This document shows positions 8,671 to 23,642 of a stretch of 25,117 bases of DNA, piece by piece. This DNA is from a virus. Under the pieces are notes generated by a model. That model was not told the origin of the DNA, did no database searches, and saw only the letters and a program-made list of their open reading frames with translations. Positions within the stretch are counted from its first letter, which is position 1, and each line of letters begins with the position of its first letter. The stretch is taken from positions 1 to 25,117 of the IMG/VR virus record IMGVR_UViG_3300017714_002608; one strand, written 5' to 3'. Made by a program: the position numbers and the translations under genes.

Positions 8671-8900
8671 ACAAGTTTTTGTTCTCGGAGATACTTTACA
8701 GTCTCAGTACATCCACCAATAGTCTTATCATCTACGAGAACTTGTGGGAACGTAGTTCCTCTACCAAACTTCTCGTAGAATTCTTGCCGATCATAATCAC
8801 GATCAAGTTTATATACAACATACTTTACTTCAGCAAGTTGCATGACTTGCTCGACCTTTGTGCAGTAAGGACAAAAGTCTTTGGAATAAACAGTGAACAT
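8667..8900 (-). CDS. Glutaredoxin (CPYC type)
   Basis: A 77-aa protein with the complete glutaredoxin pattern: MFTVYSKDFCPYC (Cys10 and Cys13), TTFPQV with the cis-proline (about 51-56), and GGCTET (glutathione-binding GG and following residues, about 63-68). It reduces disulfides with glutathione and may supply electrons to a phage ribonucleotide reductase. I chose the ATG at 8900 rather than an upstream in-frame start because that start lies inside the virion gene before it. It follows that gene by seven bases. Its stop codon and that of the converging bilin reductase overlap in one CTAG. Confidence 0.94.
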   Translation of the reverse strand: MFTVYSKDFCPYCTKVEQVMQLAEVKYVVYKLDRDYDRQEFYEKFGRGTTFPQVLVDDKTIGGCTETVKYLREQKLV

Positions 8901-8907
8901 AGTAAAA

Positions 8908-10488
8908 TTAGATTCCGAATACGATCCACCCGTTGGATGCATCAGTGTAAATTAATTCAAAAGATGCTCCTTCAGTCTCTACTGTGAGATCAGAAGCATC
9001 TCCCATAATATTACTACCATTTCTATTAACGGTCAAGGTATTGGCGTCAGCAGCCTTCTTATAATCAATAATCCTAACCTTATCTCCTTGAGTAGGAGAT
9101 GATGGCAAGGTTAAAGTCCAGGTTCCACCAGACATGTCAGCAAAAACTGTAGTGAATGAATCAATAGTTGTATTATTACTCAGTGTTCTGAAGTTTTTAT
9201 CAACACCAAGAGCAGGCATCCATCGGGTAAGAGATGAGTTCCATACCTCAAGGTCACCTGTTACGGTATTACCTCTAAGTTGAGGAGTTGTAACTGTACC
9301 AACACCAATTTGACCCTTAATAAGCAGATCACCATTCGCTGCAATGTTACCACCTGCCATAACAGCAGTGGTTGCTGCACCAATTATAACCTGAGTTTGA
9401 GTGGCTCCAGTACCCACACGACCGATGGTTGCAATACCACTAGTACCATTACTCAGATCAATTTGATTTCCTATAATAGTATCGGCGGAGTAAACGTATC
9501 TCCACTTCTTACCGTCTTGACCTAAATCAAATGAATTAGTTGTGCCAGGAGTAACGTTAGAGTTAACATTAGCATCAAGAACAACTGCGTTCTCAGTACC
9601 AACACCAGTGTTAACTGTACCACCTTGGAAGGTTACTGTACCTGTAAACGTAGATACCCCAATAACCCCAAGGTTCTGCTGAACAGTAAGGTCATCAGTT
9701 ATATTAACATCAGTAAGTTCTGTACTACCAACTACCTTCAGAGACTTGCCTGCAGGACTAGTAACACCAATAGATACTGCTCCCTTCACATAAGCATCTT
9801 GAGATTGCAGTGTCGCGCCAATGCCAACGTCTCCACTAAAGGCAGTAAAGTTCTCATAAAATCCGCTGAGAACAAAGTTTACCATCGGCTCAGAAGATCT
9901 GATGTAGATAACATCTCCACCAGATGCTCTTAAATCAACTCTAGAGTGAGTAGATCCCCGCTCTACAATGTAATTGTACTCAAGATAGTCTGTTGCAGTT
10001 GTTCCAAGACCAACTCTGACCTTAGTATCGAATGATCCTCTATTACAAACAAACAGATTACCTTTGAACTGCTTATAGTCTGTAGGAATAGTGAATAGTA
10101 AGGTACTGTTGTTGGCATTTGCCGCAGAGAATCCTTGTGCAAGGAATCCAGCATCCTCTCTATCCTCAGTCTCTGTGCCGAGAAGAGTAAACGTTACGCT
10201 AGTATGATCAGCACGTACAATTACACTCTCACCATCAGCAAAATATATAGTATCAGACTCAAAGTATTCATTAGGAGCAAGCATCCTATCAAATACAATA
10301 TACCCCTTAGTGACATCAAAGTCAGATGCAGTACCCGTAGAGAGTCCTACGCGAAACTTAATTTCACTACTGGTTTGATTCGTTATATATACTTTACTTT
10401 CAACCAACTTGCCAGCGGGAGCGGTGTACAATACTTCGTTTTTTCCCGCTAAGGATGGTGTTATTATTGCTAATGATCCAGAAGCCAT
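8908..10488 (-). CDS. Virion structural protein, probably fibre or baseplate-attached
   Basis: A 526-aa protein rich in Thr, Gly, Ser, Val and Asn. Two similar beta-rich units open it: VLYTAPAGKLVESKVYITN...KFRVGLSTG (about 19-105) and LLFTIPTDYKQFKGNLFVCN...KVRVGLGTT (about 130-210), an internal duplication. The middle (about 220-420) is a repetitive GIG/GVG/TGTVT beta region with VGIG-type turns and FDLGQDGKKWRYVYSADTI, typical of long phage fibres. The last about 75 residues (TLTLPSSPTQGDKVRIIDY...GDASDLTVETEG...NGWIVFGI) recur at the end of the protein at 24502. A late box precedes it at 10522. It very probably forms part of the particle; the exact position is not known. Confidence 0.82.
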   Translation of the reverse strand: MASGSLAIITPSLAGKNEVLYTAPAGKLVESKVYITNQTSSEIKFRVGLSTGTASDFDVTKGYIVFDRMLAPNEYFESDTIYFADGESVIVRADHTSVTFTLLGTETEDREDAGFLAQGFSAANANNSTLLFTIPTDYKQFKGNLFVCNRGSFDTKVRVGLGTTATDYLEYNYIVERGSTHSRVDLRASGGDVIYIRSSEPMVNFVLSGFYENFTAFSGDVGIGATLQSQDAYVKGAVSIGVTSPAGKSLKVVGSTELTDVNITDDLTVQQNLGVIGVSTFTGTVTFQGGTVNTGVGTENAVVLDANVNSNVTPGTTNSFDLGQDGKKWRYVYSADTIIGNQIDLSNGTSGIATIGRVGTGATQTQVIIGAATTAVMAGGNIAANGDLLIKGQIGVGTVTTPQLRGNTVTGDLEVWNSSLTRWMPALGVDKNFRTLSNNTTIDSFTTVFADMSGGTWTLTLPSSPTQGDKVRIIDYKKAADANTLTVNRNGSNIMGDASDLTVETEGASFELIYTDASNGWIVFGI

Positions 10489-10509
10489 CGCGTTATATCC
10501 TGAAAGTTA

Positions 10510-10538
10510 TTGCAGTAATATTATTTATTTGATATAAT
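10510..10538 (+). promoter_or_regulatory. Possible sigma70-like promoter for hldD
   Basis: TTGCAG (10510-10515), 17 bases and TATAAT (10533-10538), 15 bases before the ATG at 10554. The -10 is perfect; the -35 matches only in TTG. It interleaves with the late box on the other strand. Confidence 0.45.
10522..10529 (-). promoter_or_regulatory. T4-type late promoter box
   Basis: AATAAATA on the minus strand, 34 bases upstream of the virion gene starting at 10488. It fits the NATAAATA late-promoter form of T4-like cyanophages. Confidence 0.65.
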
Positions 10539-10553
10539 ATTAAACAAAAAGAC

Positions 10554-11357
10554 ATGATCATTTTAACTGGGTCCTCTGGATTCATTGGTAGACATTTTGC
10601 AGAGAGACTAAAAGATGATGTAATGTTAGTAGACCAAGAAGATGCTTGGAGACTATTTAGAGATTTTGACGAGTGGAATAAAGTAGATCTAGTTATTCAT
10701 CAAGGTGCAATATCTTCTACTACAGAAAAAGATTTACAAAAATTGTGGCACTTTAATGTAGGATTCTCATGTGCTCTCTTAAATAAAGCGATTGTATATG
10801 AGTTCCCAATTAAGTATGCATCGTCCGCATCAGTCTATGGGAATCAAAGCGTATATCAAAAATCTAAAACCTACAATCCTCTCAATCAATATGCAATCTC
10901 AAAGTTGCAGATAGATTATACTGTTATGGATAACATAGATCAGTTCTCCTTAGTTCAAGGATTCAGATACTTTAATGTGTATGGAAGTGGAGAAGAAGGT
11001 AAAGGCAATCAAGCAAGTCCAGTAAGTAAATTCACTAAAGAAGTTAAAGAAACTGGAGAATTAAATTTATTTAGTGGATCTAATAAATTCCTAAGAGATT
11101 TTATATGTGTAGATGATGTTGTAGATATTGTTCTGCACAACAATGCAGGTAGTGGCATTTATGATCTCGGCACTGGATCTCCAGTATCATTCCAGCACAT
11201 TGCAGAACTGGTAACAAAAAAAGAGGGTGGCAAAATTAATACCATCCCATTTCCTGATCACTTGAAGGGCAAATATCAGTCCTACACATGTGCAGATATG
11301 TCATGGGCAGGACAATATAAATTTAAGACTGTTGAGGAATATCTACAAGTAAATTAA
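10554..11357 (+). CDS. hldD: ADP-L-glycero-D-manno-heptose 6-epimerase (HldD-like)
   Basis: A 267-aa short-chain-type epimerase; cellular HldD is about 310 aa. HldD converts ADP-D-glycero-beta-D-manno-heptose to the L-glycero form, the donor used in LPS core synthesis. Visible are the nucleotide-binding GSSGFIG (6-12), SSASVYG (90-96), catalytic Y113xxxK117 (YAISK), RYFNVYG (138-144), GKGNQAS (149-155, where HldD has its second catalytic lysine), RDFICVDD (181-188) and the HldD-like IPFPDHLKGKYQSYTCAD (231-248). The last stretch separates HldD from general UDP-sugar epimerases. It is alone on the plus strand and converges on the sugar operon, overlapping its last gene by 35 bases. It is shortened mostly in loops before and after the Tyr-Lys pair. 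Confidence 0.86.
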   Translation: MIILTGSSGFIGRHFAERLKDDVMLVDQEDAWRLFRDFDEWNKVDLVIHQGAISSTTEKDLQKLWHFNVGFSCALLNKAIVYEFPIKYASSASVYGNQSVYQKSKTYNPLNQYAISKLQIDYTVMDNIDQFSLVQGFRYFNVYGSGEEGKGNQASPVSKFTKEVKETGELNLFSGSNKFLRDFICVDDVVDIVLHNNAGSGIYDLGTGSPVSFQHIAELVTKKEGGKINTIPFPDHLKGKYQSYTCADMSWAGQYKFKTVEEYLQVN

Positions 11358-11937
11358 AACTAACTGTTCTACGCTCTGAAATACATTTTTGTTTGACCAC
11401 CCAATGCATCAGTTTACTATCAAACAAAAATGTTTTACCATTAACTTGTTCTGGTCTGTGATGCTCATTGTTCCAAATAAATTCCAAAGAATGTAAATCA
11501 TACCAGTCAGATTCCTTTGGCAAATCTAAAATAGTAATCCCCGATATATGCCCTGCATGGTCATGTGGAGGGGTATAATTATTTTCATAGTATCTATTTA
11601 CCCAGGCATCAACAAATAAATCAGAAAACTGAGAGGTATTAAAGTATACTTGTGCGCTGTCAACATTATGTACTTTTAAATACTCTACCGCAGCACCAGC
11701 GATAAACTTTGTAAATCCAATATCATCCAGTTGTTGACCAGTCATGTATATAATTTCAAATCCTCTAGACAACAAGTCAGGAAAACCCTCAACCTTACTG
11801 TACTTGGAAGAGCAAATATCTTTAGTCTCCTGATTCATATCATCAACAAAAGTATTAAACTTCCTGAGAACATTATCAGGACACATGCATTCTAAAATGT
11901 ATGGACCAAAAGGTCTTGTCAAGTCAATATCGTACAT
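11323..11937 (-). CDS. Putative Fe(II)/2-oxoglutarate oxygenase
   Basis: A 204-aa protein. The metal-binding region reads YTPPHDHAGHISGITIL (121-137), with His125 and His127 where HxD/HxH is expected and the PPHxHxGxxSG form of the 2OG-FeII_Oxy_5 type. The distal His is in LFDSKLMHWV (His178) and the 2-oxoglutarate Arg is in ERRTVSFNLLV (Arg189 or 190). An HxH instead of HxD facial triad is unusual but occurs in this phage group. It is the last gene of the minus-strand sugar operon, starting as TAATG with the cupin gene, so it was probably recruited to hydroxylate or otherwise oxidise the product of that pathway. Substrate unknown. Confidence 0.72.
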   Translation of the reverse strand: MYDIDLTRPFGPYILECMCPDNVLRKFNTFVDDMNQETKDICSSKYSKVEGFPDLLSRGFEIIYMTGQQLDDIGFTKFIAGAAVEYLKVHNVDSAQVYFNTSQFSDLFVDAWVNRYYENNYTPPHDHAGHISGITILDLPKESDWYDLHSLEFIWNNEHHRPEQVNGKTFLFDSKLMHWVVKQKCISERRTVSFNLLVDIPQQS

Positions 11938-12290
11938 TAATCACCTTTAATAATTCTATAACTATCAGAATCAAAATGTTCAGTAGAGAATTCAAATAGT
12001 TCTGAATCTTCTAATGCAACCATTTGATGCTTCAATCCAACTGGGATATGAAATTTATCTCCAGGTTCTAAGACAAGTAGATCAGCAGTTGCTAGATCAT
12101 TATCCCATCCATGATACACAGATAACAATCCACTTTGAAGATAAAATGTTTCATCCTTCACTTTATGATAATGCCAAGAGCATCTAAAACCTTTCTTAAA
12201 GAATAAAAGTTTGCCACAATAATCTTCGGTATTACAAATCCACTTCTCATATCCCCAACCCTTAGGAACATATTTAATTGAAGAAGTCAT
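11937..12290 (-). CDS. Single-domain cupin (sugar-phosphate isomerase type)
   Basis: A 117-aa protein starting MTSSIKYVPKGWGYEKWI. The first cupin motif is WHYHKVKDETFYLQSG (39-54), with metal ligands His40, His42 and Glu47; the second is LEPGDKFHIPVGLKHQM (74-90), with His88. The PKGWGYE opening plus KDETFY is typical of small mannose-6-phosphate isomerase-like cupins found in capsule and LPS clusters. It could isomerise a sugar phosphate or bind a sugar nucleotide. The ATG at 12290 overlaps the end of the phosphatase gene by 17 bases. It forms TAATG with the next gene. Fold is firm; reaction is not. Confidence 0.8.
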   Translation of the reverse strand: MTSSIKYVPKGWGYEKWICNTEDYCGKLLFFKKGFRCSWHYHKVKDETFYLQSGLLSVYHGWDNDLATADLLVLEPGDKFHIPVGLKHQMVALEDSELFEFSTEHFDSDSYRIIKGD

Positions 12291-12621
12291 TAGAATTAAC
12301 CGCTTTATCATCTATGTAGTAATCAGCAGAGGGTTTACCCATAATAAGTTCGTGATACTTACATCCCCACATCTTTAACTGACACTTGGTAAGTTCTTCC
12401 CAACGATGACCAGCAAGAGTAGCATTTCCCTTGTATGTCCCCATACCTCTTGCAGTAAAGTATTTAATATAATGACCTTCATCATAAAGTTTATTTACTG
12501 CTTCAATATTTTTTGTGATTGGAGAAGATGCCTCATACTTACATGTCTTACATAGACTGTCCTGCTCAGCAATTACACCATCAATATCAACAACATATGT
12601 TTTAGATTCAAATACTGTCAT
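12274..12621 (-). CDS. HAD-type phosphatase, capsule-biosynthesis-like
   Basis: A 115-aa minimal HAD phosphatase. Motif I is VVDIDGVIA (Asp12 nucleophile, Asp14 acid), motif II is YFTAR (Thr56), motif III lysine is in MGKPSA (Lys96) and motif IV is YYIDDKA (Asp104, Asp105). PITKNIEAVNKLYDEGH is the usual helix between I and II. Small HADs of this type sit in polysaccharide and heptose clusters. It may supply the GmhB step (D-glycero-D-manno-heptose bisphosphate to 1-phosphate), but it is shorter than GmhB (about 190 aa) and lacks an obvious zinc site; Cys24 and Cys27 form one CxxC only. The start overlaps the upstream stop as ATGA. Confidence 0.8.
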   Translation of the reverse strand: MTVFESKTYVVDIDGVIAEQDSLCKTCKYEASSPITKNIEAVNKLYDEGHYIKYFTARGMGTYKGNATLAGHRWEELTKCQLKMWGCKYHELIMGKPSADYYIDDKAVNSNDFFN

Positions 12622-13715
12622 CTCTCTTTACCCAGGTATAAGGTTTTTAATTTATGTCTAGAAGTAGATTTAGTAGCAAAATAGTAATTTATTTTTGCCA
12701 ACCCTATGGACGTACCAGCATCTGTTGATATTGGTTCCACATATAGTTTAACACCCTTCGGTAAGATTTTCAAATACTCATAATTAGCAACACAATTCAA
12801 AGCACAACCACCAGTAAGAACTATGTTGGTCTCACCAGTCACTTCTAATGTTCTGAGAATTAAGTTTGACATATATCTTTCAAAATCTTTTTGAACTCTA
12901 TAAGCAAGGTTGGAGAACTTAACTTTAAGTTCATCATCAAGATCTATAAAGTTATTCACACCTCTCGGATATCTTACATATTCATATGGCAAAAACGTAA
13001 GTCCAAACCTATTTCTACAAAATAAATTAGTGTCTAAAGTAAAGTCATCATTAACAAAAGGTTTTATGTTTTCATCTTCCACACCATATGAAGATAACCC
13101 CATCAATTTACCAGAACCAAAGTCACCAAATCCAAAGTACTTTGATAGTGAATGATAAACCATACCAATACCAAAAGACAAATCATACTTATCAGCATCT
13201 AAGTATGTCGGAGTTAATCCAACACTATGCTTTTTGAATTGACTTGGATATGTACAAGAGAATATTGTCTCAACTTCTTGAACTTCTTTTTTATTTGGTA
13301 GAGGATTACCCATCCCATCGACAACTAAAACTGCTGCTCTAGCAAATCCAGAATTGTAAAACCCACAAGCAGCATGGAAGTCATGATGCAGTTCATAAAG
13401 CTCATATTGAATATCCTCAGAATCTCTTACGGATATTTCTTTTGCATATCTCTTTGATAATATACGAGTAAAAAACTCTGCATGATTTTTTAAATAATCT
13501 TTGTTATGTGGTTCATACAAACCAGATACTTGAATTTTCTTGTGTATATCTGGAGATATATCTATTTCCATGACTGATGTCAACGGATCAACGTCATGCT
13601 TGATTCCACTGTATCTCTCTTCCTCAATAAACCAATCAATCTCTCCACCAGTAACCTGACAAATAGATGCATCATGACTTACATGAGCACCAAGATAAGA
13701 GTACTTCTTCAACAT
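12618..13715 (-). CDS. Carbamoyltransferase with only the Kae1-like domain
   Basis: A 365-aa protein matching the N-terminal domain of the NodU/TobZ family: SHDASIC (13-19), EEERYSGIKHD (31-41), the HHxxHAA metal site as HHDFHAA (110-116), LVVDGMG (130-136), KLMGLSSYG (203-211) and LTGGCALNCVANY (300-312). It stops at LKTLYLGKER, the position equivalent to KLENLYTGLSYM in the full-length copy at 16955, that is, exactly at the domain border. The YrdC-like domain with GxxEAGxRALGNRSI, which makes carbamoyl-AMP, is absent. It is a clean gene with ATGTTGA and ATGA overlaps with both neighbours and a GGAG before its start, not a decaying fragment. It may depend on carbamoyl-AMP from a full-length partner. 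Confidence 0.84.
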   Translation of the reverse strand: MLKKYSYLGAHVSHDASICQVTGGEIDWFIEEERYSGIKHDVDPLTSVMEIDISPDIHKKIQVSGLYEPHNKDYLKNHAEFFTRILSKRYAKEISVRDSEDIQYELYELHHDFHAACGFYNSGFARAAVLVVDGMGNPLPNKKEVQEVETIFSCTYPSQFKKHSVGLTPTYLDADKYDLSFGIGMVYHSLSKYFGFGDFGSGKLMGLSSYGVEDENIKPFVNDDFTLDTNLFCRNRFGLTFLPYEYVRYPRGVNNFIDLDDELKVKFSNLAYRVQKDFERYMSNLILRTLEVTGETNIVLTGGCALNCVANYEYLKILPKGVKLYVEPISTDAGTSIGLAKINYYFATKSTSRHKLKTLYLGKER

Positions 13716-14488
13716 AAGATCATCTCCACATCATTATCTGTTAAGGTATAACAACCATAATTTTGCACTGCAATTGCAGATGCTCTATTTGCAATTCTAA
13801 TAGCAGTGGTGATGTCCTGATACTGTAAGAAAGAATATGCCAAAGCTGCTAAGAATGTATCCCCAGCACCAACAACATCAAATACCTTCACCTTCTCAGC
13901 AGGATATACATTTCCTTGATGCACCACACCATTCTCACCCAAAGTAACAATCAGTTGATTTTCATCAGGTTTCACTGTCAATTTATTATACTCCCTTTGA
14001 TTTATCTTAAAGAACACATTTGGATAAGTAAAGAGTTCTGTCTTCTTTGTATCAATAAAAACAGGACCATCAAAATTTTGACAAAAGACTTCTAAATCCT
14101 TTTTAGATAAGTATCCCTTATCATAGTCAGATATTACAACAGCATCATACTGCATATGAACGAATGCAGATTTAACTTCAGATACTTTAAGAGAATCTAT
14201 ATCCTCTTCTTCATCTATCCTCAATAGTTGTTGGTTACTACTACTATCAACAATTCTTCTTTTAATAATTTGTTTTTTATTTGTGATATGATTTACACTG
14301 ACACCAAAAGACTCTAGATTTGCCTTAACATTGGCAGACATGCCCTTTGAAGTTATTGTTTTACCATACTTCAATACAGGGATCGGTGCTTCTGGACTAA
14401 TTCTTTCTACATCACCGTAGACATACTCATCATTACACGTCTCCCCTAGTAATAATATCTTGAATTGTTTTTGTTGTTGCATAATCAT
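13709..14488 (-). CDS. hldA: D-glycero-beta-D-manno-heptose 7-phosphate kinase (PfkB family)
   Basis: A 259-aa protein corresponding to the N-terminal kinase half of bifunctional HldE (about 315 aa there). It phosphorylates heptose 7-phosphate at position 1. Visible are ILLLGETCNDEYVYGDVERISPEAPIPVLK (11-40), where RISPEAP is a strong HldE/RfaE signature, a modified GMSANVKANLESFG (49-62), QQLLRID (86-92), SDYDKG (120-125) and the PfkB GAGDTF (207-212, catalytic Asp210). About 20 residues seen in HldE between the NQRE segment and the last strands are missing. The start (ATG 14488 or 14482) overlaps the upstream adenylyltransferase gene by about 55 bases, the longest overlap in the operon. That could be the remnant of a split HldE fusion. 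Confidence 0.87.
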   Translation of the reverse strand: MIMQQQKQFKILLLGETCNDEYVYGDVERISPEAPIPVLKYGKTITSKGMSANVKANLESFGVSVNHITNKKQIIKRRIVDSSSNQQLLRIDEEEDIDSLKVSEVKSAFVHMQYDAVVISDYDKGYLSKKDLEVFCQNFDGPVFIDTKKTELFTYPNVFFKINQREYNKLTVKPDENQLIVTLGENGVVHQGNVYPAEKVKVFDVVGAGDTFLAALAYSFLQYQDITTAIRIANRASAIAVQNYGCYTLTDNDVEMILC

Positions 14489-14840
14489 TTATTCTACTAA
14501 AGAATACTAACTCAGAAACGTACATGGATCCAATAACAGACTTACCTCGCCAATCAGATCCAACAACCATTACATCGGGTTGAATAAAATTAATCAGTGC
14601 TTCTAATTCAAAATCAGAATCAAACAAATGTACTTTATGTACTGATTTTAAATTTTCCAAGAAGAACTTTCTTTCTTCTTGATTATATATCGGTCTAGAT
14701 GGTCCCTTCTTTTCAGACACCCTACGATCAGTATCTATGCCTACGTAAACTTTATCACCAAGAGACTTTGCAAAGTTTAAAAGTTCTAAATGTCCACGAT
14801 GAAGTAGATCAAATGTACCATTGACAAAAACTTTTCTCAT
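14433..14840 (-). CDS. hldC: Heptose 1-phosphate adenylyltransferase (HldC/HldE C-terminal type)
   Basis: A 135-aa cytidylyltransferase-fold enzyme. FVNGTFDLLHRGHLELL (5-21) contains the HxGH nucleotide-binding motif (His14, His17). KGPSRPIYNQEER (45-57), DVMVVGSDWRGKSVIGS (89-105) and YATTKTIQDI (120-129) correspond to the ISTxK-like end of RfaE-type proteins. It joins AMP from ATP to heptose 1-phosphate, giving ADP-heptose. In most bacteria it is fused behind the kinase; here it is a separate gene placed before the kinase. The start overlaps the upstream stop as TCATGA. A glycerol-3-phosphate cytidylyltransferase (TagD) is the main alternative, but the adjacent heptose kinase favours HldC. 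Confidence 0.87.
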   Translation of the reverse strand: MRKVFVNGTFDLLHRGHLELLNFAKSLGDKVYVGIDTDRRVSEKKGPSRPIYNQEERKFFLENLKSVHKVHLFDSDFELEALINFIQPDVMVVGSDWRGKSVIGSMYVSELVFFSRINDYATTKTIQDIITRGDV

Positions 14841-15457
14841 GAAAAAATTCTCTGCGTGTCGTGTTCAGATAACATAAAACTAAAGACCCATAAAATTCTA
14901 TTTGTTTTACCAATGATCTCATCAACCTGATGCTCTGCAGAAGATACAATATACATCAAAAGATCTGTATCATTAACTTCCCAGGGTTCACCATCAATAA
15001 TAGTGACACCACCAGATTCTGGTTTTTGAGTTATAAAGTTACAATGAACGGTATGAGTTTCTTCAAACCATACAGGATCTATATGTGGATGAACTGTTCC
15101 ACCCTCAAAACTAATCTCTGTAATTATACCATTCTTTCCAACAGGTGACAATCCAAAATTTCTAAAGTCAAAAGTTTCAACAATACTACTCTGTATCTCA
15201 TGAACCACATCTGGGTACTTAAAATTTGGATTAGATGATGCTGCGAAGTTGCCATGATCCTGATTCTCTATAAAGGGATTCATGTAATTCACCAGAGGAT
15301 TGGCAAACCTAGTTGTTAATTTTGTATCCCTAATAAAATTAGAATCCATTCTAGGATCCATAAAGTGATCACTCTTATAATTTTGTGTGGTCCACAAATT
15401 TAATTGATCCCTTTGATCCTCAGTGATAAAATCTTTGAATGCTTTTACTAATTTCAT
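14837..15457 (-). CDS. Putative Fe(II)/2-oxoglutarate oxygenase
   Basis: A 206-aa protein. ISFEGGTVHPHIDPVWFEETHTVHCNFI contains the facial triad HxD (His125, Asp127). GGVTIIDGEPWEVNDTDLLMYIVSSAEHQVDEI supplies the distal His176. TNRILWVFSF carries the 2-oxoglutarate Arg187. The layout resembles aspartyl/asparaginyl hydroxylase-like and phage 2OG oxygenases. It lies between the halogenase and heptose adenylyltransferase genes with ATGA overlaps on both sides, so it is almost certainly co-translated with them and probably acts in the same pathway. Which carbon it oxidises is unknown. Confidence 0.78.
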   Translation of the reverse strand: MKLVKAFKDFITEDQRDQLNLWTTQNYKSDHFMDPRMDSNFIRDTKLTTRFANPLVNYMNPFIENQDHGNFAASSNPNFKYPDVVHEIQSSIVETFDFRNFGLSPVGKNGIITEISFEGGTVHPHIDPVWFEETHTVHCNFITQKPESGGVTIIDGEPWEVNDTDLLMYIVSSAEHQVDEIIGKTNRILWVFSFMLSEHDTQRIFS

Positions 15458-16968
15458 TTTACACCATGACCAGAATAATAATCTATCCCCAAACTATCAC
15501 CCCTTTTTATTTTTATTAAGCACTGCTGAATCCACTCTCGATGTAGGATTGACTTCTTATGCTTTTCTATTTCCTCATTATAAAAATTTTCTACAAGAAT
15601 CCTTGCTTGATCAGTATCAACACCATCATTTTTTGGTTCAACTAATTCCTTATCTAAAAATTGAAGAATGAACATTGCCCAATTTTCTCCCTGGAACATA
15701 AAGTCACCCGAGACTGGAAGTGTATATGGATTATTCAAAGTCTCATTCTCATAAAACTTTTGAGTCTCTGACATTTTAAAAGTATCTTGAACATACTTCC
15801 AAAACTTTCCAGTCTCTCTCTTATTGTGAGAGTAATGCATACTTACAAAATCAATACAGTCTTCATAGAAATGAATCATCTTCATATTGAATAGTTCTGC
15901 ATCAAGATCATTATAGCAATGTCCCTTTACTGCTTCTACAATCTCAATTGCACCTGCACATATCAATGCAATCCCAGTGCTTTCTAATGGTTCAATAAAT
16001 CCACTAGACAATCCATTACAACAAACATTATCAACCCAAGAATTTTTATGGTAATAAGGTGTCCAATTTAAAACCTTTAGTGTATCCCTATTAACTCTAC
16101 CATCCCAATAGTCAACGAAGAAATCTTTAGCTTCATCAATATCTGTAACAGATTTATTAAATACTAGTCCTGTCCCAATTCTACTTTGATTTGGAGTCTT
16201 CCAAATCCAACCATGTTCTACAGCAGAGCATGTTGTATATGGTCTCATCTCAGAATCCATATCAATATACTGAACAGGACCAGCAATAGCAGTGTCGCAA
16301 AATAATCTACCAGTACAATCCACACTATCTGGTTCTGACCCCAATAGTCTTCTCCAACCAGTACAGTCAATAAACAAATCAGATTCAATTACCTGTCCAT
16401 CCTCAAGAGTGATAGAATTTAATCCCCCTTTTGAATTTCTATCAACATCTTTTACACCACATTTAACAAAACTAATTTTATTCGCAATCCTTTCCTTTAT
16501 ATAATTAACTAACTTGCCACAGTCAATATGATATGAATAGGTTGATATATTATCTGGATCAACTTTATTCTCTGTTACTCCTGGATTATATAATGCACAA
16601 GCATGAGTAAAATATTCAAGATCTTTATTCTTAGTCCAAAGATTTAAAAGATTAGTTTCAAGGAAATTAAATTCGGGGAAAGCAAATGGATGCCATAAGT
16701 TTTGACCTTCTTTTTGCCAGTCTTCAAAAAGAATACCACCTTTAAATGTAGCATCAATTTTACCTAACCAATCTTCAATTTCAAATCCACATCCCACCAT
16801 AAACTGTTTGAAGCTAAGAATCGTCGCTTCACCAACCCCCACTGCCTCACTCTCAGATTTATCAATGAGAACTATTTGTGTACGTTTTAATTTTGCCTGC
16901 AAAAAAGCAGCGGTCATCCATCCAGATGTACCGCCACCAACAACAACAATACGATTAATTGGTCTCAT
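15454..16968 (-). CDS. Flavin-dependent tryptophan-type halogenase
   Basis: A 504-aa protein, close to the usual about 530 aa. The FAD-binding GGGTSGWMTAA (11-21) and VGVGEATI (43-50) are intact. The catalytic lysine matches DATFKGG (Lys76, PrnA Lys79 equivalent). The WxWxIP motif that blocks monooxygenation is GWIWKTP (253-258), with Ile to Thr. The catalytic glutamate lies in EPLESTGIALI (Glu329). These enzymes add chlorine or bromine to indole or phenol rings using reduced flavin, so a flavin reductase must come from the host. None is in the window. It sits inside the sugar operon between carbamoyltransferase and oxygenase genes. Halogenase homologues are known in other cyanophages with unknown substrates. 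Activity as hydroxylase or on another aromatic group is possible. Confidence 0.93.
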   Translation of the reverse strand: MRPINRIVVVGGGTSGWMTAAFLQAKLKRTQIVLIDKSESEAVGVGEATILSFKQFMVGCGFEIEDWLGKIDATFKGGILFEDWQKEGQNLWHPFAFPEFNFLETNLLNLWTKNKDLEYFTHACALYNPGVTENKVDPDNISTYSYHIDCGKLVNYIKERIANKISFVKCGVKDVDRNSKGGLNSITLEDGQVIESDLFIDCTGWRRLLGSEPDSVDCTGRLFCDTAIAGPVQYIDMDSEMRPYTTCSAVEHGWIWKTPNQSRIGTGLVFNKSVTDIDEAKDFFVDYWDGRVNRDTLKVLNWTPYYHKNSWVDNVCCNGLSSGFIEPLESTGIALICAGAIEIVEAVKGHCYNDLDAELFNMKMIHFYEDCIDFVSMHYSHNKRETGKFWKYVQDTFKMSETQKFYENETLNNPYTLPVSGDFMFQGENWAMFILQFLDKELVEPKNDGVDTDQARILVENFYNEEIEKHKKSILHREWIQQCLIKIKRGDSLGIDYYSGHGVK

Positions 16969-18757
16969 TATTTTTAATGTTGATCATTTTACTGTACTCA
17001 GGTAAATATAAGTATTCAATTCCAGACTTTGCCAGAGTTCTACAAGCATCATCTAAAGTCTCAACTAACGGTTCTCCACCAAGATTAAAAGATGTATTAA
17101 AAATAATTGGACATCCAGTCTTCTTGTAGAAGGTTTCAATCAGATCATGATAATGTAAGTTTTGCTCTTTAGTTACCGTTTGAATTCTACAAGTGCCATC
17201 AACATGAATGATCGATGGAATCTTTTCTTCAATTCCATCTTGACATCTGACTGCATACATCATAAAAGGAGTCTCGTCCATACCACGGAGGTCAAACCAA
17301 TCATGAACATGTTCTTGAAGAATTGATCCTGCAAAGGGACGGAAGTATTCTCTTCTCTTAATCTCATTGACATGATCTTTACCATTGGGATCTCTAGGAT
17401 CATACAAAATAGATCTATTTCCAAGAGCACGGGGTCCCGCTTCAGACCTACCTTGGAACATTGCCACAATATTCTTATTGGTAATCAGTTCAACTACATC
17501 TTCATGAGTGGCGTCAGTTACAGAATCAGCATTATACTTATCTGCTGATCTTAAAATTTCGTCATCAGTGTACATATAAGAAAGTCCAGTATAAAGATTT
17601 TCAAGTTTTCCTCTAACATCCGTACTACCAGTTACCCTATGATATTGCAGAAGTGCAGCACCAATAGCAGTTCCAGCATCATTACTAACTGGTTCAACAA
17701 ACAAATTAATACCTTCATCTTTTAATTGATCAAGATACCAATAATTCGCAACACAATTCAGACCATAACCACCAGAGAGAACAACATTCTTATTGCCACT
17801 AATATCAACTGCCTTACGAATGAGATCTAAGACCATTTGCTGCGATTCAGTTTGAATAGCATATGCAAGGTCTCTGCGATTCTCAAGCAGAGTTAGATCA
17901 TCACAATCTGGTGGAGTGTAAAGGGATTCATATCTACCTTCATTTACAACTGCACCATTAGGATAAGTAGGAACAATAACATTTCTATCAGCAGTCTTCC
18001 ATGATCCACCACCACCATCAGTGTAGATTGTAGGGACATTCTCATTAGGTTTCCCATATGGGAAAAGACCCATGGTCTTACCAGCTTCAATGGGTTGCCA
18101 TCCACAATATTGTGTTACCGCTTCATATGCCTTGGTGATTCCAGCACTCTCATCAAGAATAAACTCATGAGTTCCTTCTTCACCTTCACTCGTACTATCC
18201 ATCTCTTCGATTCTAGCAGATCCCCATGGTCCTCGACCCGCTTGATGCTTATATAGTGTCTTAAACTCTGAGGGATAGTCACATGAGAAGATAGTCTCAA
18301 GCTCCCAAGTCATCTCCTGGTCCATACCAATATTCATCGGCACAAAAGTTCCTGCCCCATCAACAACAAGTCCAACAGCACTTTCAAAACCCGACCGATA
18401 AAATGCACAAGCAGCATGCAATTTATGATGAGTTCTACTTAAATCAATAACTTGAGGATGATCATGAGGATCGACATGCCTATCAATCAATCCCAACTTT
18501 CTTGCCAAACCAGTGTACATATCGTCACCAGTAAAATCAATTGACCCTGCCTGACCCAAAGGTTGGGTGTGTGCAATCACAAGATAATCTAAACGATCAG
18601 TATATTCAAGAATTTTTACCATGGACGCTAATGGTCCACCATCATATTTACTTCTAGATAGTCTCTCCTCCTCAATAGATAAAACTAATTCACCATTGTG
18701 AAGTAGACACACTCCAGAGTTATGTCCACGGGCAATTGCTGCAATCCATTCTGACAT
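16955..18757 (-). CDS. Carbamoyltransferase (NodU/TobZ/CmcH family), full length
   Basis: A 600-aa protein with both domains. The Kae1-like domain has RGHNSGVC (10-17), EEERLSRSKYDGG (29-41), the metal site HHKLHAA (110-116), LVVDGAG (130-136), GKTMGLFPYG (226-235) and LSGGYGLNCVANY (327-339). The YrdC-like domain has GRSEAGPRALGNRSI (436-450), KRREYFRPFA (467-476), HVDGTCRIQTV (518-528) and NTSFNLGGEPLV (554-565). It is predicted to make carbamoyl-AMP and carbamoylate a sugar hydroxyl. It is the second gene of the operon, ten bases after the glycosyltransferase, and its end overlaps the halogenase start. It is closer to the single-domain copy at 12618 than to the one at 6339 in the metal-site region. 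Confidence 0.94.
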   Translation of the reverse strand: MSEWIAAIARGHNSGVCLLHNGELVLSIEEERLSRSKYDGGPLASMVKILEYTDRLDYLVIAHTQPLGQAGSIDFTGDDMYTGLARKLGLIDRHVDPHDHPQVIDLSRTHHKLHAACAFYRSGFESAVGLVVDGAGTFVPMNIGMDQEMTWELETIFSCDYPSEFKTLYKHQAGRGPWGSARIEEMDSTSEGEEGTHEFILDESAGITKAYEAVTQYCGWQPIEAGKTMGLFPYGKPNENVPTIYTDGGGGSWKTADRNVIVPTYPNGAVVNEGRYESLYTPPDCDDLTLLENRRDLAYAIQTESQQMVLDLIRKAVDISGNKNVVLSGGYGLNCVANYWYLDQLKDEGINLFVEPVSNDAGTAIGAALLQYHRVTGSTDVRGKLENLYTGLSYMYTDDEILRSADKYNADSVTDATHEDVVELITNKNIVAMFQGRSEAGPRALGNRSILYDPRDPNGKDHVNEIKRREYFRPFAGSILQEHVHDWFDLRGMDETPFMMYAVRCQDGIEEKIPSIIHVDGTCRIQTVTKEQNLHYHDLIETFYKKTGCPIIFNTSFNLGGEPLVETLDDACRTLAKSGIEYLYLPEYSKMINIKNNETN

Positions 18758-18766
18758 ATTAAAACC

Positions 18767-19906
18767 TCACTTAAGTTTTTGAAGAATATCTACTGTGTTT
18801 GCTTTGGATTTACCAAAACCTTTGTTAGTTACATCAAATTTAGACGTATCTGCTGATCTTAAATCTAACTGCGGCAACTTACTAATTTCTTGTTGTTTGT
18901 TTCCAGGTGATGCTGAACAAGATGAATAATCTTGTTGTGGAATAGTATAATTTCCAGTATATCCAACGGATTTACCCATCCTATTTTTGACCGACTTGAC
19001 AACAGAATCAATCTGTTCTTCACTCATCTCCATTGCTTCATCGTTAAGTCTATCTTTAATCTCATCGATTGCAACTCTGATTGGAGAATAAACTCTTTTA
19101 CCCTCTCCAATGTCAATGATATCAAAGTCTTTATGGTCGGGATAAGAAATATTTACAGGGAATGTTGAACCTGTAACTACAGTAGCAGTCTTATCAAGTG
19201 CTCTTGCAATATGCTGACCCATACTATCACACCCAAGAAGATGGTCAGCAGCATTAATAACACCTGCCCAGATTCTCATGTCACTGATCTGAGGTCTAGC
19301 AACTTTATATCTTGCTTTATCTTCATTCTCTTCCAGAGGGAAGTGAATCTCACTCATGATAACGACAGCATATTCTTTCTTCAATTCATTAATGATATTG
19401 ACAATATTATTAACAGAAAAACTCCTAGAAGAAGTATCAATGATAAAGTCTTGTCCCACCTGCTCTATAGATCTACCAAACGGTTGAACTACTAAAACCT
19501 TATCTTTACCTGTCCCTGCTTTTACTTCCTCAACAATATTAAATCCTTGAACTATTTCTGCTTTGTTCAGAACTACAGTTGGTTTAGGAAGTTCTCTTGG
19601 TTCATCAAGTTCATTGATGAGAATATCAAATGCTTGTGCAAGACTACACTCTTGATTGTAATAATGCCAACATCTATAAGGTTCTGGACTAACACATTCT
19701 CTATGCTTAATCTCGTTTTCAAACAAACCCTTATGCCAATTATCAAAAACTTTTGTAGATAAAGTTGGATGACCTTTAAAGAAGTCGGTGCCTCCTTCGC
19801 ATACAATAACAAAATCGTCATGCGTTTCCGCATACTTTTCAAATGCGGGGATAGCACAAATTACTCGACCAGCTCCACCGTTGATGAAGAACGCTTTAGA
19901 CCTCAT
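18767..19906 (-). CDS. GT9-like (heptosyltransferase-type) glycosyltransferase
   Basis: A 379-aa protein. The two-domain GT-B pattern of family GT9 is recognisable: an N-terminal FINGGAGRVICAIPAFEKYAE (7-27, equivalent to the G-D-x-x-x-x-x-P loop of heptosyltransferases), LVVQPFGRS (138-146) and GCDSMGQHIARALDKTATVVTGST (225-248), which matches the D-S-x-x-x-H-x-A-x-A-L nucleotide-sugar site. GT9 enzymes transfer heptose from ADP-heptose, so it is the natural user of the pathway encoded downstream. A Ser/Gln-rich tail after about residue 325 is extra. It is the first gene of the sugar operon, 55 bases after the late box at 19961, with a GAGG before the start. The acceptor is unknown and a related GT-B family cannot be excluded. 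Confidence 0.7.
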   Translation of the reverse strand: MRSKAFFINGGAGRVICAIPAFEKYAETHDDFVIVCEGGTDFFKGHPTLSTKVFDNWHKGLFENEIKHRECVSPEPYRCWHYYNQECSLAQAFDILINELDEPRELPKPTVVLNKAEIVQGFNIVEEVKAGTGKDKVLVVQPFGRSIEQVGQDFIIDTSSRSFSVNNIVNIINELKKEYAVVIMSEIHFPLEENEDKARYKVARPQISDMRIWAGVINAADHLLGCDSMGQHIARALDKTATVVTGSTFPVNISYPDHKDFDIIDIGEGKRVYSPIRVAIDEIKDRLNDEAMEMSEEQIDSVVKSVKNRMGKSVGYTGNYTIPQQDYSSCSASPGNKQQEISKLPQLDLRSADTSKFDVTNKGFGKSKANTVDILQKLK

Positions 19907-19960
19907 TTTTTTTCAACCTCAGGGTACTAATATTGCTATGACAATAGCATGATTTGATTT

Positions 19961-19968
19961 TATTTATC
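19961..19968 (-). promoter_or_regulatory. T4-type late promoter box before the sugar operon
   Basis: GATAAATA on the minus strand, 55 bases upstream of the ATG at 19906. It lies inside an inverted repeat (TTTGATT/AATCAAA, 19953-19977). A second 6-bp hairpin (TGCTAT/ATAGCA, 19934-19949) lies between it and the gene. Late expression of the cassette is inferred. Confidence 0.6.
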
Positions 19969-19972
19969 CCAA

Positions 19973-20674
19973 TCAAAAAAACATTATTTGAGTGAGACGA
20001 TCATATTCCGTATACATACCAGGTTGCATGATAGCACCATGCACCACATTTGCATCATAGAGTATCGCTCTATTATACTTCATTGGGCACACATATTGCA
20101 ACTTTGGTTTAGGTTTTGGATTATCTTCCGTTGGGTTTTGAACTGTACAGAATCCAGTTCCTGGTACAGAATTCTCTTCACCATACTCTTCAGGAGTATT
20201 TAAAAATACTAAAGAAGCCCACTTATTATATGGTCCATCAACGTGGTATATGTCATCCCACCTACCAGAGTCAACAATCTCCTTGTCATTTGTAACATTA
20301 ACAACAAATCGCATTAACTTCCATTTATTTGTAAAGTGCTCTTCATCAAATTCAATATGCCAATCCTCATGATTACATAGTTGTTTGAATACCCCCGATA
20401 GTTGAAGATATAATTCATCTAGAATTTCAGGTTCCTCTCTCCATACTCTTCTACCTATTGCACCAGAAAGACGTTTTTTATCAGTATATAAAGGAGAATC
20501 CAATGCTAGTTGTCTAACTTCATCTGGATTTTTATAAAAATTATCTATCACAAATATGGGTTTACTTATAATCTCTCTTGTATCATAATACACTCTCCCA
20601 TCTTCTAAGGCATCCCATCGCATTTCTTTGATGTTGTCCTTCATCACTCCTAGGTCAGAATTAACTTCAAACAT
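19973..20674 (-). CDS. Fe(II)/2-oxoglutarate oxygenase-like protein (DUF6445-like)
   Basis: A 233-aa protein. PIFVIDNFYKNPDEVRQLAL (39-58) and the core DDIYHVDGPYNKWASLVFLNTPEE (140-163) give the metal pair His144 and Asp146. NRAILYDANVVHGA gives His212 and YDRLTQIMFF gives Arg226. The PDEVRxLAL opening and GTGF segment are typical of DUF6445 proteins, a 2OG-oxygenase-like family, as recalled from memory. The start forms TAATG with the upstream gene, another oxygenase, so the two are probably coupled. Substrate unknown. Confidence 0.76.
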   Translation of the reverse strand: MFEVNSDLGVMKDNIKEMRWDALEDGRVYYDTREIISKPIFVIDNFYKNPDEVRQLALDSPLYTDKKRLSGAIGRRVWREEPEILDELYLQLSGVFKQLCNHEDWHIEFDEEHFTNKWKLMRFVVNVTNDKEIVDSGRWDDIYHVDGPYNKWASLVFLNTPEEYGEENSVPGTGFCTVQNPTEDNPKPKPKLQYVCPMKYNRAILYDANVVHGAIMQPGMYTEYDRLTQIMFF

Positions 20675-21207
20675 TATAGCAAAGGTATAGCACCAAAATT
20701 TTTAGTAGGTAAAGTAGGAAGAGTATGATCTTCCCTAGACATAATATCAAATCCTAAAGTTATTCTTTTACCAGAATACTTTCTTAAATTTACAACTCTA
20801 TGTGCATGTTTACCAGGACCAAAATATATGTTACCACATTCATTATCAATAGTCCAATCCTCAAATTCGGTTGCAGTATCCTGAGGTTCTATGGATATGT
20901 AACCATGCCACAATGCCTTATGATTATGCCACCCAAGCACACCATCATAGTCTTGGTAGTTTAACCAAGACTGAATCCAGAGAATGCTTTCGGGCAATTG
21001 TTCTCTTACAATTTCCCTAACCTTTTCATAAATTCTATACATGTGTATAGAAGGAGAAGATACCCCAAAGATATTATAGTCAGTGTAAGCCCCCGTGGAA
21101 TCGGAAAGACCATTACTCACTATGTGATCATGGGATATCTTCAGTTCTGTTATTATTTCTTGTTGGTTCTCTTTAATATAATCAAAGTTATACAGAATAT
21201 AATTCAT
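20674..21207 (-). CDS. Putative Fe(II)/2-oxoglutarate oxygenase
   Basis: A 177-aa protein. WLNYQDYDGVLGWHNHKALWHGYISI (81-106) supplies His94 and His96 at the HxD position (HNH). GNIYFGPGKHAHRVVN supplies the distal histidine (His134 or His136), and YSGKRITLGFDIM supplies the 2-oxoglutarate Arg148. The pattern matches phage 2OG-FeII_Oxy-type proteins like the one at 11323, which also has HxH. It is the first gene after the gap at 21208-21244. The downstream gene is coupled through TAATG. Substrate unknown. Confidence 0.68.
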   Translation of the reverse strand: MNYILYNFDYIKENQQEIITELKISHDHIVSNGLSDSTGAYTDYNIFGVSSPSIHMYRIYEKVREIVREQLPESILWIQSWLNYQDYDGVLGWHNHKALWHGYISIEPQDTATEFEDWTIDNECGNIYFGPGKHAHRVVNLRKYSGKRITLGFDIMSREDHTLPTLPTKNFGAIPLL

Positions 21208-21210
21208 TCA

Positions 21211-21242
21211 CTATAATTCAATTGCTTAATTATATATTATAG
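21211..21242. repeat. Inverted repeat with TATAAT on both strands
   Basis: CTATAAT (21211-21217) and ATTATAG (21236-21242) are inverted copies 18 bases apart in the gap before the gene at 20674-21207. The minus-strand TATAAT at 21241-21236 could be a -10 box, but I see no matching -35. Confidence 0.4.
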
Positions 21243-21244
21243 CA

Positions 21245-21964
21245 CTATTCAGGATCGGGTTTGCCTGCCGCTGCGTCAGCGTACTTGGTCGCTGCACTTG
21301 GTTGAGTTGGGAACATGTGCGTAGCAATGTTAGGATCAATGCCTGCAAGATTTGTTGGCATATCTCTAAGTTTTTGTCTATACGCAGTCCATTCTGCTTT
21401 AAGTGCATCAGGAGCATCTGCAGGGAGATTGTTATCACTGGCATCAAGAGTTTTATCTCTTACCAGTTTAATATCCTCCCAGGTAACATCTCTCTCAGTT
21501 CCACAAATAGCTTCGCTTACAGATCTAGTTTTAACTACTATCTTACCAGTCTTAAGGTCCTTACTTACTTCTGAAGCCTCATAGATGTCGTTAGGTTTTG
21601 CTGGTGTCCAAACCATTAGACGGTCATATCCCTCGATAGCAGGGGATTGTGAATGAGGAGTAGAAGGTTCATCATACTCTACTTGTTTAGCGTCATCAAT
21701 TGGTCCTCTTAATTGACAGATAAGAGGGTCGGTAGAACAATCTACTTCAAACCACTCTGCAACGTCCTCAGGAACAGGTCTACCGTCCACAATATCTTCT
21801 TCGGTTAAAGGACCGTACTTCTCTTTACCATCTGCACCCAGTTGGAGCCAGATTTTATCTGGACCATGGTACGTAAATTTACGTGTTTTTCCTGCAGACT
21901 GAGAATGGTCTACTTGGTATTCATTGGGGAGACCCAGATCAAATTCTATAGAAACTTGTGCCAT
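21245..21964 (-). CDS. Putative tail fibre assembly or tail-associated protein
   Basis: A 239-aa protein. The C-terminal part, WEDIKLVRDKTLDASDNNLPADAPDALKAEWTAYRQKLRDMP (162-203), resembles the tail-fibre-assembly chaperone domain (R-D-x-x-L...W..YRQ.LRD-P) found at the ends of fibre-chaperone proteins of many phages. Here, unusually, a long N-terminal part with several short beta-rich segments precedes it (IEFDLGLPNEYQVD, DKIWLQLGADGKEKYGPLTEEDI). A CSTDPLIC segment (76-83) holds two cysteines. A late box, TATAAATA, lies 40 bases upstream. It sits at the end of the run of three Cys/Gly-rich adhesin-like genes, fitting a role in their assembly or attachment. Confidence 0.65.
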   Translation of the reverse strand: MAQVSIEFDLGLPNEYQVDHSQSAGKTRKFTYHGPDKIWLQLGADGKEKYGPLTEEDIVDGRPVPEDVAEWFEVDCSTDPLICQLRGPIDDAKQVEYDEPSTPHSQSPAIEGYDRLMVWTPAKPNDIYEASEVSKDLKTGKIVVKTRSVSEAICGTERDVTWEDIKLVRDKTLDASDNNLPADAPDALKAEWTAYRQKLRDMPTNLAGIDPNIATHMFPTQPSAATKYADAAAGKPDPE

Positions 21965-22003
21965 GGTTATTACTACTTAAAAAGGTTGACTTACTTTTAA
22001 TAA

Positions 22004-22011
22004 TATTTATA
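22004..22011 (-). promoter_or_regulatory. T4-type late promoter box
   Basis: TATAAATA on the minus strand, a perfect T4 late box, overlapping the stop codon of the 22007-22795 gene and 40 bases before the gene at 21964. Confidence 0.75.
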
Positions 22012-22795
22012 GGAAACTAATCTTAACTAATCCAGGACCGCCAGTGGCTCCCTTGGCGCAGCAGCTACTACCACCACAATAGGTAGTCATACCACCCTGT
22101 CCACCGTGTCCATATGGAGATGTCCAGCAACCACAACGCTGCCAACACTCATGGATTTGAGCTTGAACTTGTGTACCAATAAATGGTGCAGGAGTTGGAG
22201 CGTGTGCTTGACAATGGCAATGACACTCAGCGATGTGACCATTGAATGCACCTCTATGGTTACCCATTCCAAAGTCACCACCATGAGCATTAGGATCCAC
22301 ACAACAGCGACCCCAGTCAGAGTGGCAAGCAGTGTTCCAAGAACCATTAGCACAACCACCAGTGCCACCGAGAGCACAGAAGTTAGACAGTCCAGTACCA
22401 TTAACGTAAGATGAACATCCATCACACGCCACACATTCAACACTCTCGCATGGATAAGTACCACCAGCGCAAACTGTGTATGCATCGCCAGCAGTTACTG
22501 TAATAGTTTTGCTGTTATAGTATCCACCTTGAGCACCAGCAAAGTGCTGACATCTACCAGTAGAACATGCGCCATGTCCATTGCCACCTGCGCCCCACAT
22601 TTCAAAATGAACTTTTCTTACACCTGCAGGAATAGTCCAAAGACAGCAACATCCTGTTGAGCAACGATTAGGAGATCCAAAAATCCACTTGACACACCAA
22701 GTGTCAAACACTCCAGTAGCAACAGCAGATTGTGGGATACTGCCATCAACTATGGATGCTGTTAAGATTTTTTTATAGCTAGAGTAAGATGCCAT
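22007..22795 (-). CDS. Cys/Gly-rich adhesin-like virion protein (paralogue 1)
   Basis: A 262-aa protein with about 26 cysteines (10 percent), often in CCC, CxC or CC clusters. Order: MASYSSYKKIL... start, STGCCCLWTIPAGVRKVHFEMWGAGGNGHGAC (47-77), the glycine-rich fold opening seen in phage Gly-rich tip domains, then QHFAGAQGGYYNSKTI, ECVACDGCSSYVNG, GNHRGAF, HCHC, ECWQRCGCW and a C-terminal GGQGGMTTYCGGSSCC...GGPGLVKISFL. There is no signal peptide. It is one of three tandem paralogues, about 60 percent similar by eye, in the tail-gene region, so I infer a particle-surface adhesin. The many cysteines may form a disulfide or metal-bound network once outside the cell. A late box precedes it. 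Confidence 0.8.
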   Translation of the reverse strand: MASYSSYKKILTASIVDGSIPQSAVATGVFDTWCVKWIFGSPNRCSTGCCCLWTIPAGVRKVHFEMWGAGGNGHGACSTGRCQHFAGAQGGYYNSKTITVTAGDAYTVCAGGTYPCESVECVACDGCSSYVNGTGLSNFCALGGTGGCANGSWNTACHSDWGRCCVDPNAHGGDFGMGNHRGAFNGHIAECHCHCQAHAPTPAPFIGTQVQAQIHECWQRCGCWTSPYGHGGQGGMTTYCGGSSCCAKGATGGPGLVKISFL

Positions 22796-22821
22796 CTCTC
22801 GTTAAACCTCGTTATTAATAG

Positions 22822-22829
22822 TATTTATC
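22822..22829 (-). promoter_or_regulatory. T4-type late promoter box
   Basis: GATAAATA on the minus strand, 27 bases before the ATG at 22795, overlapping the end of the 22828-23628 gene. Confidence 0.65.
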
Positions 22830-23628: not shown

Positions 23629-23642
23629 TTTTAGATGTCTCC

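Follow-up and report, generated by a model that had tools for sequence, protein, structure and literature searches.

The 25,117-nucleotide stretch analysed here (positions 1 to 25,117 of the IMG/VR virus record IMGVR_UViG_3300017714_002608; hereafter, the window) encodes a flavin-dependent halogenase (FDH) in a run of genes that it shares with genes for a tail fibre and for Cys-rich tail proteins. The likeliest role for this FDH, which we hold at somewhat less than an even chance, is that it halogenates an aromatic side chain of a tail adhesin or fibre. The gene is intact, conserved and selected, its gene run is shared with tail genes, and phage FDHs recur beside proteins with the Gly_rich_2 domain. 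The papers cited here name no natural substrate for phage halogenases, even for the well-studied iodinating enzyme VirX1, and the linkage points to a concrete acceptor, the tail-tip adhesins, in phages that are already cultured.

The open reading frame (ORF) lies at 15454-16968, where a first-pass annotation had placed a flavin halogenase; the strand, which that annotation had not given, is minus, translation starts at an ATG, and the plus strand there has many stops. Matches far beyond chance to Pfam Trp_halogenase (PF04820, 1.3e-88, a whole-length match spanning residues 6-431) and to phrog_2928 (6e-105) bear out the identity and place the protein in the family. In a PDB sequence search the closest solved protein was PrnA (1e-63), and VirX1 scored lower (7e-48). 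An AlphaFold2 model built from 71 alignment rows has a mean predicted local distance difference test (pLDDT) score of 94.0, and its residues 1-485 align to the solved FDHs Xcc4156 (Z 41.9), PrnA (Z 40.8), MibH (Z 38.9) and VirX1 (Z 38.0). Screening a viral fold library with the model returned two FDH-like matches and nothing further. Lys76, which we equate with the catalytic lysine by PrnA numbering, and Glu329 are kept, as the first-pass annotation had said. Against the near relative L001 (81% amino acid identity), dN/dS is 0.094, which indicates that the gene is maintained by selection, here purifying. Its predicted product is a functional FDH belonging to the PrnA/VirX1 superfamily, with the following features:

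15454-16968, minus strand: FDH, 504 amino acids (aa) (PF04820; phrog_2928; pLDDT 94; Z 38-42 against solved FDHs)
16921-16938, minus strand: flavin-binding GxGxxG-type motif GGGTSG, residues 11-16 (from the translation; G11 and G13 invariant in 71 rows)
16741-16743, minus strand: presumed catalytic Lys76 (invariant in the 33-row and 71-row alignments; aligned with FK of PrnA)
16684-16692, minus strand: Trp2-type HPF motif, residues 93-95 (alignment; motif class as defined in part of PMC8269204)
16192-16209, minus strand: WIWKTP variant of the WxWxIP motif, residues 254-259 (translation, PrnA alignment and survey of relatives)
15982-15984, minus strand: catalytic Glu329, in PLEST (no variation in the 7-row or the 71-row alignment; 140 of 141 ORFs have E here)

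The linkage of FDHs to tail adhesins was measured in named phage genomes, in which we placed FDHs, phrog_863 proteins, 2-oxoglutarate (2OG) oxygenases (phrog_81) and Gly_rich_2 domains (PF21722). The statistics cover 21 genomes that we picked from the 66 records of the FDH list, one per phage; three of the 24 collected records (a partial single-cell contig and two unannotated faecal clones) were excluded. PF21722 matches were taken above the curated cut-off, phrog_81 matches to 1e-10 and phrog_863 matches at E <1e-40, a cut set after viewing the list. Gly_rich_2 is a domain common to the window protein at 23643-24428 (5e-9) and proteins of Syn10 (3e-10), P-TIM40 (5e-13) and the metagenomic locus L047, where it lies in an adhesin (2.5e-10). 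Fourteen genomes have both an FDH and a Gly_rich_2 match, and the two are less than 3 kb apart in 10 and less than 10 kb apart in 12; random rotation gave means of 1.1 and 2.7, and none of 10,000 rotations was as high. An FDH lies within 3 kb of phrog_863 in 9 of 10 (null 0.70; 0 of 20,000), and in Syn10 a pair of phrog_863 tail protein genes is followed, after one small gene, by two FDH genes. Controls from the same genomes behaved differently: transaldolase is within 10 kb in 0 of 12 and carbamoyltransferase in 2 of 9. Genes for 2OG oxygenases are enriched within 6 kb in nine fibre-type records (22 of 57, null 5.7, 0 of 5000), with no such enrichment in the remaining twelve records (9 of 64, null 5.6, 651 of 5000).

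A search with the Syn10 adhesin protein matched 20 of 50,697 phage records, and reading the two tables side by side found all 20 accessions in the FDH list. Within S-RIM44, the adhesin is present in five records, from four isolates plus one RefSeq copy, each with FDHs at three places; the four records without the adhesin have one. In KX349294 the fibre gene is followed by genes for three Gly-rich proteins and a small protein, by two FDHs and by seven further genes before gp13; the seven include four of 2OG-related PHROGs and one JmjC-like gene, so named via its Syn10 homologue. KX349297 instead reads fibre (51-59% protein identity to that of KX349294), a phrog_2415 protein, phrog_2504, one 2OG oxygenase and gp13, and it retains only the FDH near 168 kb. 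The two DNAs are 96.6% identical from just before gp13 onward. Judged from these gene orders, adhesins, two FDHs and oxygenases are swapped jointly within S-RIM44, and the isolates form a natural pair with and without the enzymes.

The window FDH and its relatives fall into several families. We examined 84 IMG/VR loci, comprising the best 80 of at least 594 relatives and earlier loci, a set that is skewed to the window clade and in which many stretches are short; gene calls in other contigs are ORFs. At least two FDHs occur in 51 of these loci, and a virion gene, assigned by clustering, in 71, with none in the stretch for the remaining 13; a cluster of Cys-rich or Gly-rich adhesins is present in 25, heptose genes in 45 and oxygenase-type genes in 44. 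Three layouts recur: that of the window; one in which gp15-like and NUDIX genes are followed by one or two FDHs; and one with four or five FDHs interspersed with oxygenases, which, where complete, adjoins Gly_rich_2 proteins. A FastTree tree of 107 rows (its locus types A-D are script labels) resolves a VirX1 clade, a window clade and a third clade. The window FDH is outside the VirX1 clade, in a separate clade of 50 rows with a support of 100; the large clades are linked to one another by weak branches. The other clades likewise adjoin Gly_rich_2 adhesins, with up to four or five copies per locus. Four or five FDHs stand among 2OG oxygenases in L044, L047, L048, L054, L055 and L058, several of them beside three Gly-rich adhesin paralogues, and L044, L047 and L058 contain FDHs of all three clades. 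Of 13 loci of bacterial relatives, L115, L116 and L127 branch among the phage FDHs, and these three may come from phage contigs that were binned with metagenome-assembled genomes; most of the others are 27-31% identical. Two faecal "Bacteriophage sp." clones (L028 and L029; MT835646 and MT837902) carry several FDHs that reach 650 bits to PF04820, above all phage FDHs, and may be bacterial DNA.

The substrate class can be narrowed by motif. Motifs Trp1 to Trp4 are catalogued in part of PMC8269204, where Trp4 occurs in groups A and B, all Trp-regioselective, and none is given for group C (VirX1, MibH, BrvH, KrmI and others). We found Trp4 in none of 181 phage FDH rows, some of them duplicates and the window included, which makes free tryptophan an unlikely substrate; we rejected it and do not place the window FDH with the free-tryptophan halogenases (PrnA/RebH/PyrH; groups A and B). 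Free tryptophan is suggested in a portion of PMC9964418, and the absence of Trp4 speaks to the contrary. The first-pass annotation had offered an aromatic aglycone, a Trp or Tyr of a virion protein or a host indole as acceptors; the comparative context favours a virion protein, against which stands a cassette lacking the FDH in Sf-FS3 (below). MibH, with which the fold match is Z 38.9, is by its PDB title a lanthipeptide Trp halogenase, and it acts on peptide-bound Trp. The flavoprotein QhpG, which resembles FDHs, adds two hydroxyl groups to a Trp in the protein that it partners, as described in part of PMC7876137. These two are precedents for the action of such a fold on Trp within a peptide.

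In the FDH family, hypohalous acid is made at the flavin and carried to the catalytic Lys, with the Glu assisting. For the window FDH, a host flavin reductase would supply FADH2; O2 and halide would give hypohalous acid at the flavin, to be passed to Lys76 with the assistance of Glu329 (family chemistry, in part from sections of PMC8407142). An electron-rich aromatic ring would then be halogenated, the acceptor suggested by context being a Trp, Tyr or His of the tail-tip adhesin or fibre. Halogenation would be one of several modifications of the receptor-binding apparatus by adhesin-clustered genes, the others being hydroxylation by oxygenases and, here, addition of heptose and carbamoyl groups; the phage might gain in binding, stability or serotype. 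Enzyme activity, halide, acceptor and benefit are what we infer here. A broader proposal, which we regard as slightly more tentative, is that marine T4-like phages use FDH families together with 2OG oxygenases to modify receptor-binding adhesins post-translationally, so that virions would bear halogenated residues, several FDH paralogues beside a single adhesin set would serve different sites, and VirX1 would have a Gly-rich tail protein as its natural target.

Several observations weigh against adhesin halogenation. The genomes are related to one another, so that the linkage statistics suggest more independence than there is. Of the 21 FDH-bearing genomes, seven lack a Gly_rich_2 match above the cut-off. 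In two of the seven, the FDH lies between a tail fibre gene and one with the annotation gp37-gp38 adhesin tip (S-SRM01) or after collagen-annotated genes (DSL-LC01); in three more, S-MbCM6, Syn1 and S-PM2, it is among hli, psbA or talC genes. S-B64 and P-SSM2 carry FDH and Gly_rich_2 about 64 kb apart. The linkage could also arise if the region from fibre to neck genes were a hot spot for cargo. In Sf-FS3 the cassette is of the window type, with its three Cys-rich genes and its carbamoyltransferase and heptose genes, but the genome has no FDH. We looked in its Cys-rich proteins for a lost aromatic residue and found none, as all aromatic positions conserved in 57 proteins from FDH loci are kept. 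The FDH is thus an accessory of the cassette, and no target residue can be named.

The first-pass annotation understated the gene context when it described a sugar operon. The FDH belongs to one tight minus-strand gene run that starts at the tail fibre and Cys-rich tail genes, with gaps of at most 73 bp and many overlaps. The sugar-enzyme neighbours themselves are well founded: the NCBIfam models nearest to them are that of ADP-heptose epimerase (2.3e-63) and those of the two rfaE domains, I and II, and there are O-carbamoyltransferases. The neighbouring features are:

24502-25116, minus strand: tail fibre protein, C-terminal part, truncated by the window end (phrog_9851 5e-29)
23643-24428, minus strand: Cys-rich tail protein C with a Gly_rich_2 domain, candidate acceptor (PF21722 5.1e-9)
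22828-23628, minus strand: Cys-rich tail protein B, candidate acceptor (paralogue)
22007-22795, minus strand: Cys-rich tail protein A, candidate acceptor (paralogue of 23643-24428; phrog_4205)
21245-21964, minus strand: tail fibre assembly chaperone (PF16778; phrog_4912)
20674-21207, minus strand: 2OG oxygenase-like protein (phrog_2696, phrog_81)
19973-20674, minus strand: DUF6445-like, oxygenase-type protein (PF20043 2.5e-5; phrog_1644)
18767-19906, minus strand: conserved 379-aa protein, perhaps a glycosyltransferase, a guess (phrog_8954 only; no match in Pfam, NCBIfam or PDB profile searches)
16955-18757, minus strand: O-carbamoyltransferase, NodU/TobZ-like, overlapping the FDH start by 14 bp (PF16861, PF02543; TobZ and others in PDB)
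14837-15457, minus strand: probable 2OG-type oxygenase, overlapping the FDH stop by 4 bp (no Pfam family; putative HxD...H pattern seen by eye)
14433-14840, minus strand: nucleotidyltransferase half of a split HldE (PF01467; TIGR02199 3.2e-30, below cut-off)
13709-14488, minus strand: PfkB kinase half of a split HldE (PF00294; TIGR02198 1.3e-45, below cut-off)
12618-13715, minus strand: second carbamoyltransferase, N-terminal domain only (PF02543 without PF16861)
12274-12621, minus strand: HAD-type phosphatase (TIGR01689 1.4e-9; phrog_1238)
11937-12311, minus strand: cupin (PF07883 3.5e-6, just under cut-off; phrog_7851)
11323-11937, minus strand: 2OG-Fe(II) oxygenase (PF13759; phrog_81)
10554-11357, plus strand: ADP-heptose 6-epimerase-like enzyme (PF01370; TIGR02197, below cut-off)
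8020-8670, plus strand: ferredoxin-dependent bilin reductase

The three Cys-rich paralogues have about 26 Cys each, many of them invariant, and Gly_rich_2 is recognised in one; a structure model of a Cys-rich protein was too poor to use (pLDDT 39.6). The epimerase, on the strand opposite to the FDH run, is nearest to ADP-glyceromanno-heptose 6-epimerase, and all heptose-type NCBIfam matches are below their cut-offs; from these nearest models and rfaE I/II, the cassette sugar is probably heptose-like. The bilin reductase gene points to a cyanobacterial host, and the virus probably infects marine cyanobacteria. Heptose is absent from the lipopolysaccharide (LPS) of marine Synechococcus WH8102 and CC9311, as reported in part of PMC4515613; should the host resemble these strains, its LPS is unlikely to be the acceptor. 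The second carbamoyltransferase is also N-terminal-only in the relatives L001 and S-SSM7, and may be inactive or work with the full-length partner. No flavin reductase had been seen by the first-pass annotation, and PF01613, the one reductase family searched, is absent from the window and from 20 phage genomes (0 of 21 records) and present in the control Synechococcus elongatus. A DNA search of phages with window positions 8000-25117 gave a single 58-base match, no RNA families were found in the window, and promoter and terminator scans gave counts near shuffle level.

That the cassette, FDH included, makes a metabolite or decorates a capsule is the strongest of the competing explanations, and we consider it unlikely. 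The same cluster in S-SSM6a is so described in print (part of PMC7824862), the window FDH is surrounded by heptose-type and carbamoyltransferase genes, and heptose genes occur in the 45 of 84 IMG/VR loci noted above. Against it, none of the window proteins scanned (small ORFs being outside the scan and the record a fragment) is a scaffold-forming enzyme or a peptide precursor, and Syn10-type FDHs have adhesins and oxygenases as neighbours but, in the stretches examined, no heptose genes. The heptose-free LPS of the two Synechococcus strains argues against it too, and the Sf-FS3 cassette manages without an FDH.

Less probable again, by a small step, is that the FDH is an auxiliary metabolic enzyme acting on a host small molecule such as an indole, phenol, bilin or free tryptophan, for example in antibiotic-like protection or signalling, and that its proximity to tail genes reflects a cargo hot spot. 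VirX1 accepts many small aromatics in vitro according to part of PMC8407142, some FDHs are in metabolic gene regions, and antibiotic protection is proposed in a portion of PMC9964418. The lack of Trp4 from all 181 rows counts against such a substrate, as do the placing of other auxiliary genes elsewhere (transaldolase, 0 of 12 within 10 kb) and the exchange of FDHs jointly with one adhesin type.

The first-pass annotation had centred on the altered WxWxIP motif. Its reading as WIWKTP is correct (W254-P259, GWIWKTP in the window and GWTWKIP in PrnA), and the motif is present as a variant lacking the exact Ile. The motif frame occurs in 138 of 141 full-length FDH ORFs, the fifth position being Ile (122 ORFs), Thr (12), Gly (2) or Val (2); in the Syn10 ORF of VirX1 size the motif is WVWNIP. 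WxWxIP or its variants are absent from a number of FDHs, and variants are permitted, according to part of the review PMC8407142. As Thr is shared by 12 of the 138 related phage FDHs, we dropped the motif as the main oddity of the window FDH, and judge the Ile-to-Thr change mild, shared with relatives and no mark of odd chemistry. We consider it very improbable that the protein, instead of halogenating, oxygenates or cross-links peptide Trp in the manner of QhpG or LodB, with the neighbouring Cys- and Trp-rich tail proteins as substrate. In favour of this are weak NCBIfam matches to GoxB, QhpG and LodB (1.4e-5 to 9e-4, far below cut-offs), the Cys- and Trp-rich neighbours themselves and the alteration of a motif thought to block monooxygenation (part of PMC8407142). 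Against it, both halogenase residues are kept, Lys76 being invariant and the Glu329 position E in all but one ORF, and the motif differs just by Ile to Thr.

Some phage FDHs differ at the active site. Gln replaces the catalytic Glu (EPLQATS) in FDHs of Syn1 (L025:10004-11440), S-RIM44 (third copy, L008:10013-11449), Sf-CH3 (second, L032:5943-7397) and Sf-CH11 (second, L033:6003-7400), and because of this their chemistry or substrate may differ. In S-PM2 (NC_006820.1, 121319-122608), a TAA lies in frame inside the FDH frame, where LN828717 (S-PM2) annotates a halogenase. Short, diverged FDH-like proteins of 367 and 383 aa without WxWxxP occur in S-SSM7 and P-TIM40 (L035:5250-6353 and L034:5735-6886). 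Among the oxygenases, proteins labelled phrog_274 "DNA endonuclease V" (denV; L009:16415-16933, L009:17538-18122 and L006:11450-12004) resemble 2OG-type oxygenases, with cross-matches to phrog_81/61 and weak PF13640 matches, and the denV label may be wrong in cyanophages.

The closest known systems share parts of this arrangement. VirX1 of cyanophage Syn10 (PDB 6QGM; facts from the review PMC8407142 and PDB titles) is likewise a phage FDH of the same fold without Trp4, and its gene stands directly after tail adhesin genes and before oxygenases, a similar placing relative to tail genes; it differs in sequence (about 26-31% identity), clade and motif, and the Syn10 stretch examined has no sugar genes. 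PrnA, RebH and PyrH resemble the window FDH as the best PDB sequence match, with fold Z of about 40, Lys and Glu and an HxF motif, and differ in having the Trp4 motif for free tryptophan. The S-SSM6a/S-SSM7 cassette (part of PMC7824862) runs in much the same order as the window through Cys-rich tail, carbamoyltransferase, FDH and heptose genes, and the window likewise holds carbamoyltransferase, FDH, oxygenases, cupin, kinase and nucleotidyltransferase together; the window FDH is 40% identical, and S-SSM7 has extra genes between carbamoyltransferase and FDH. PrnA and LPS-type genes are tabulated for such phages in part of PMC3037559. MibH (lanthipeptide tryptophan 5-halogenase, PDB 5UAO) shares the fold and the lack of Trp4, and differs in having 23% identity in the structural alignment and a small peptide antibiotic as acceptor. 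The open-access papers searched gave no link between a halogenase and tail proteins. Phage FDHs and this type of cassette are already known; modification of adhesins by them would be new and, if true, would add halogenation to the ways in which a virus tunes its receptor-binding proteins.

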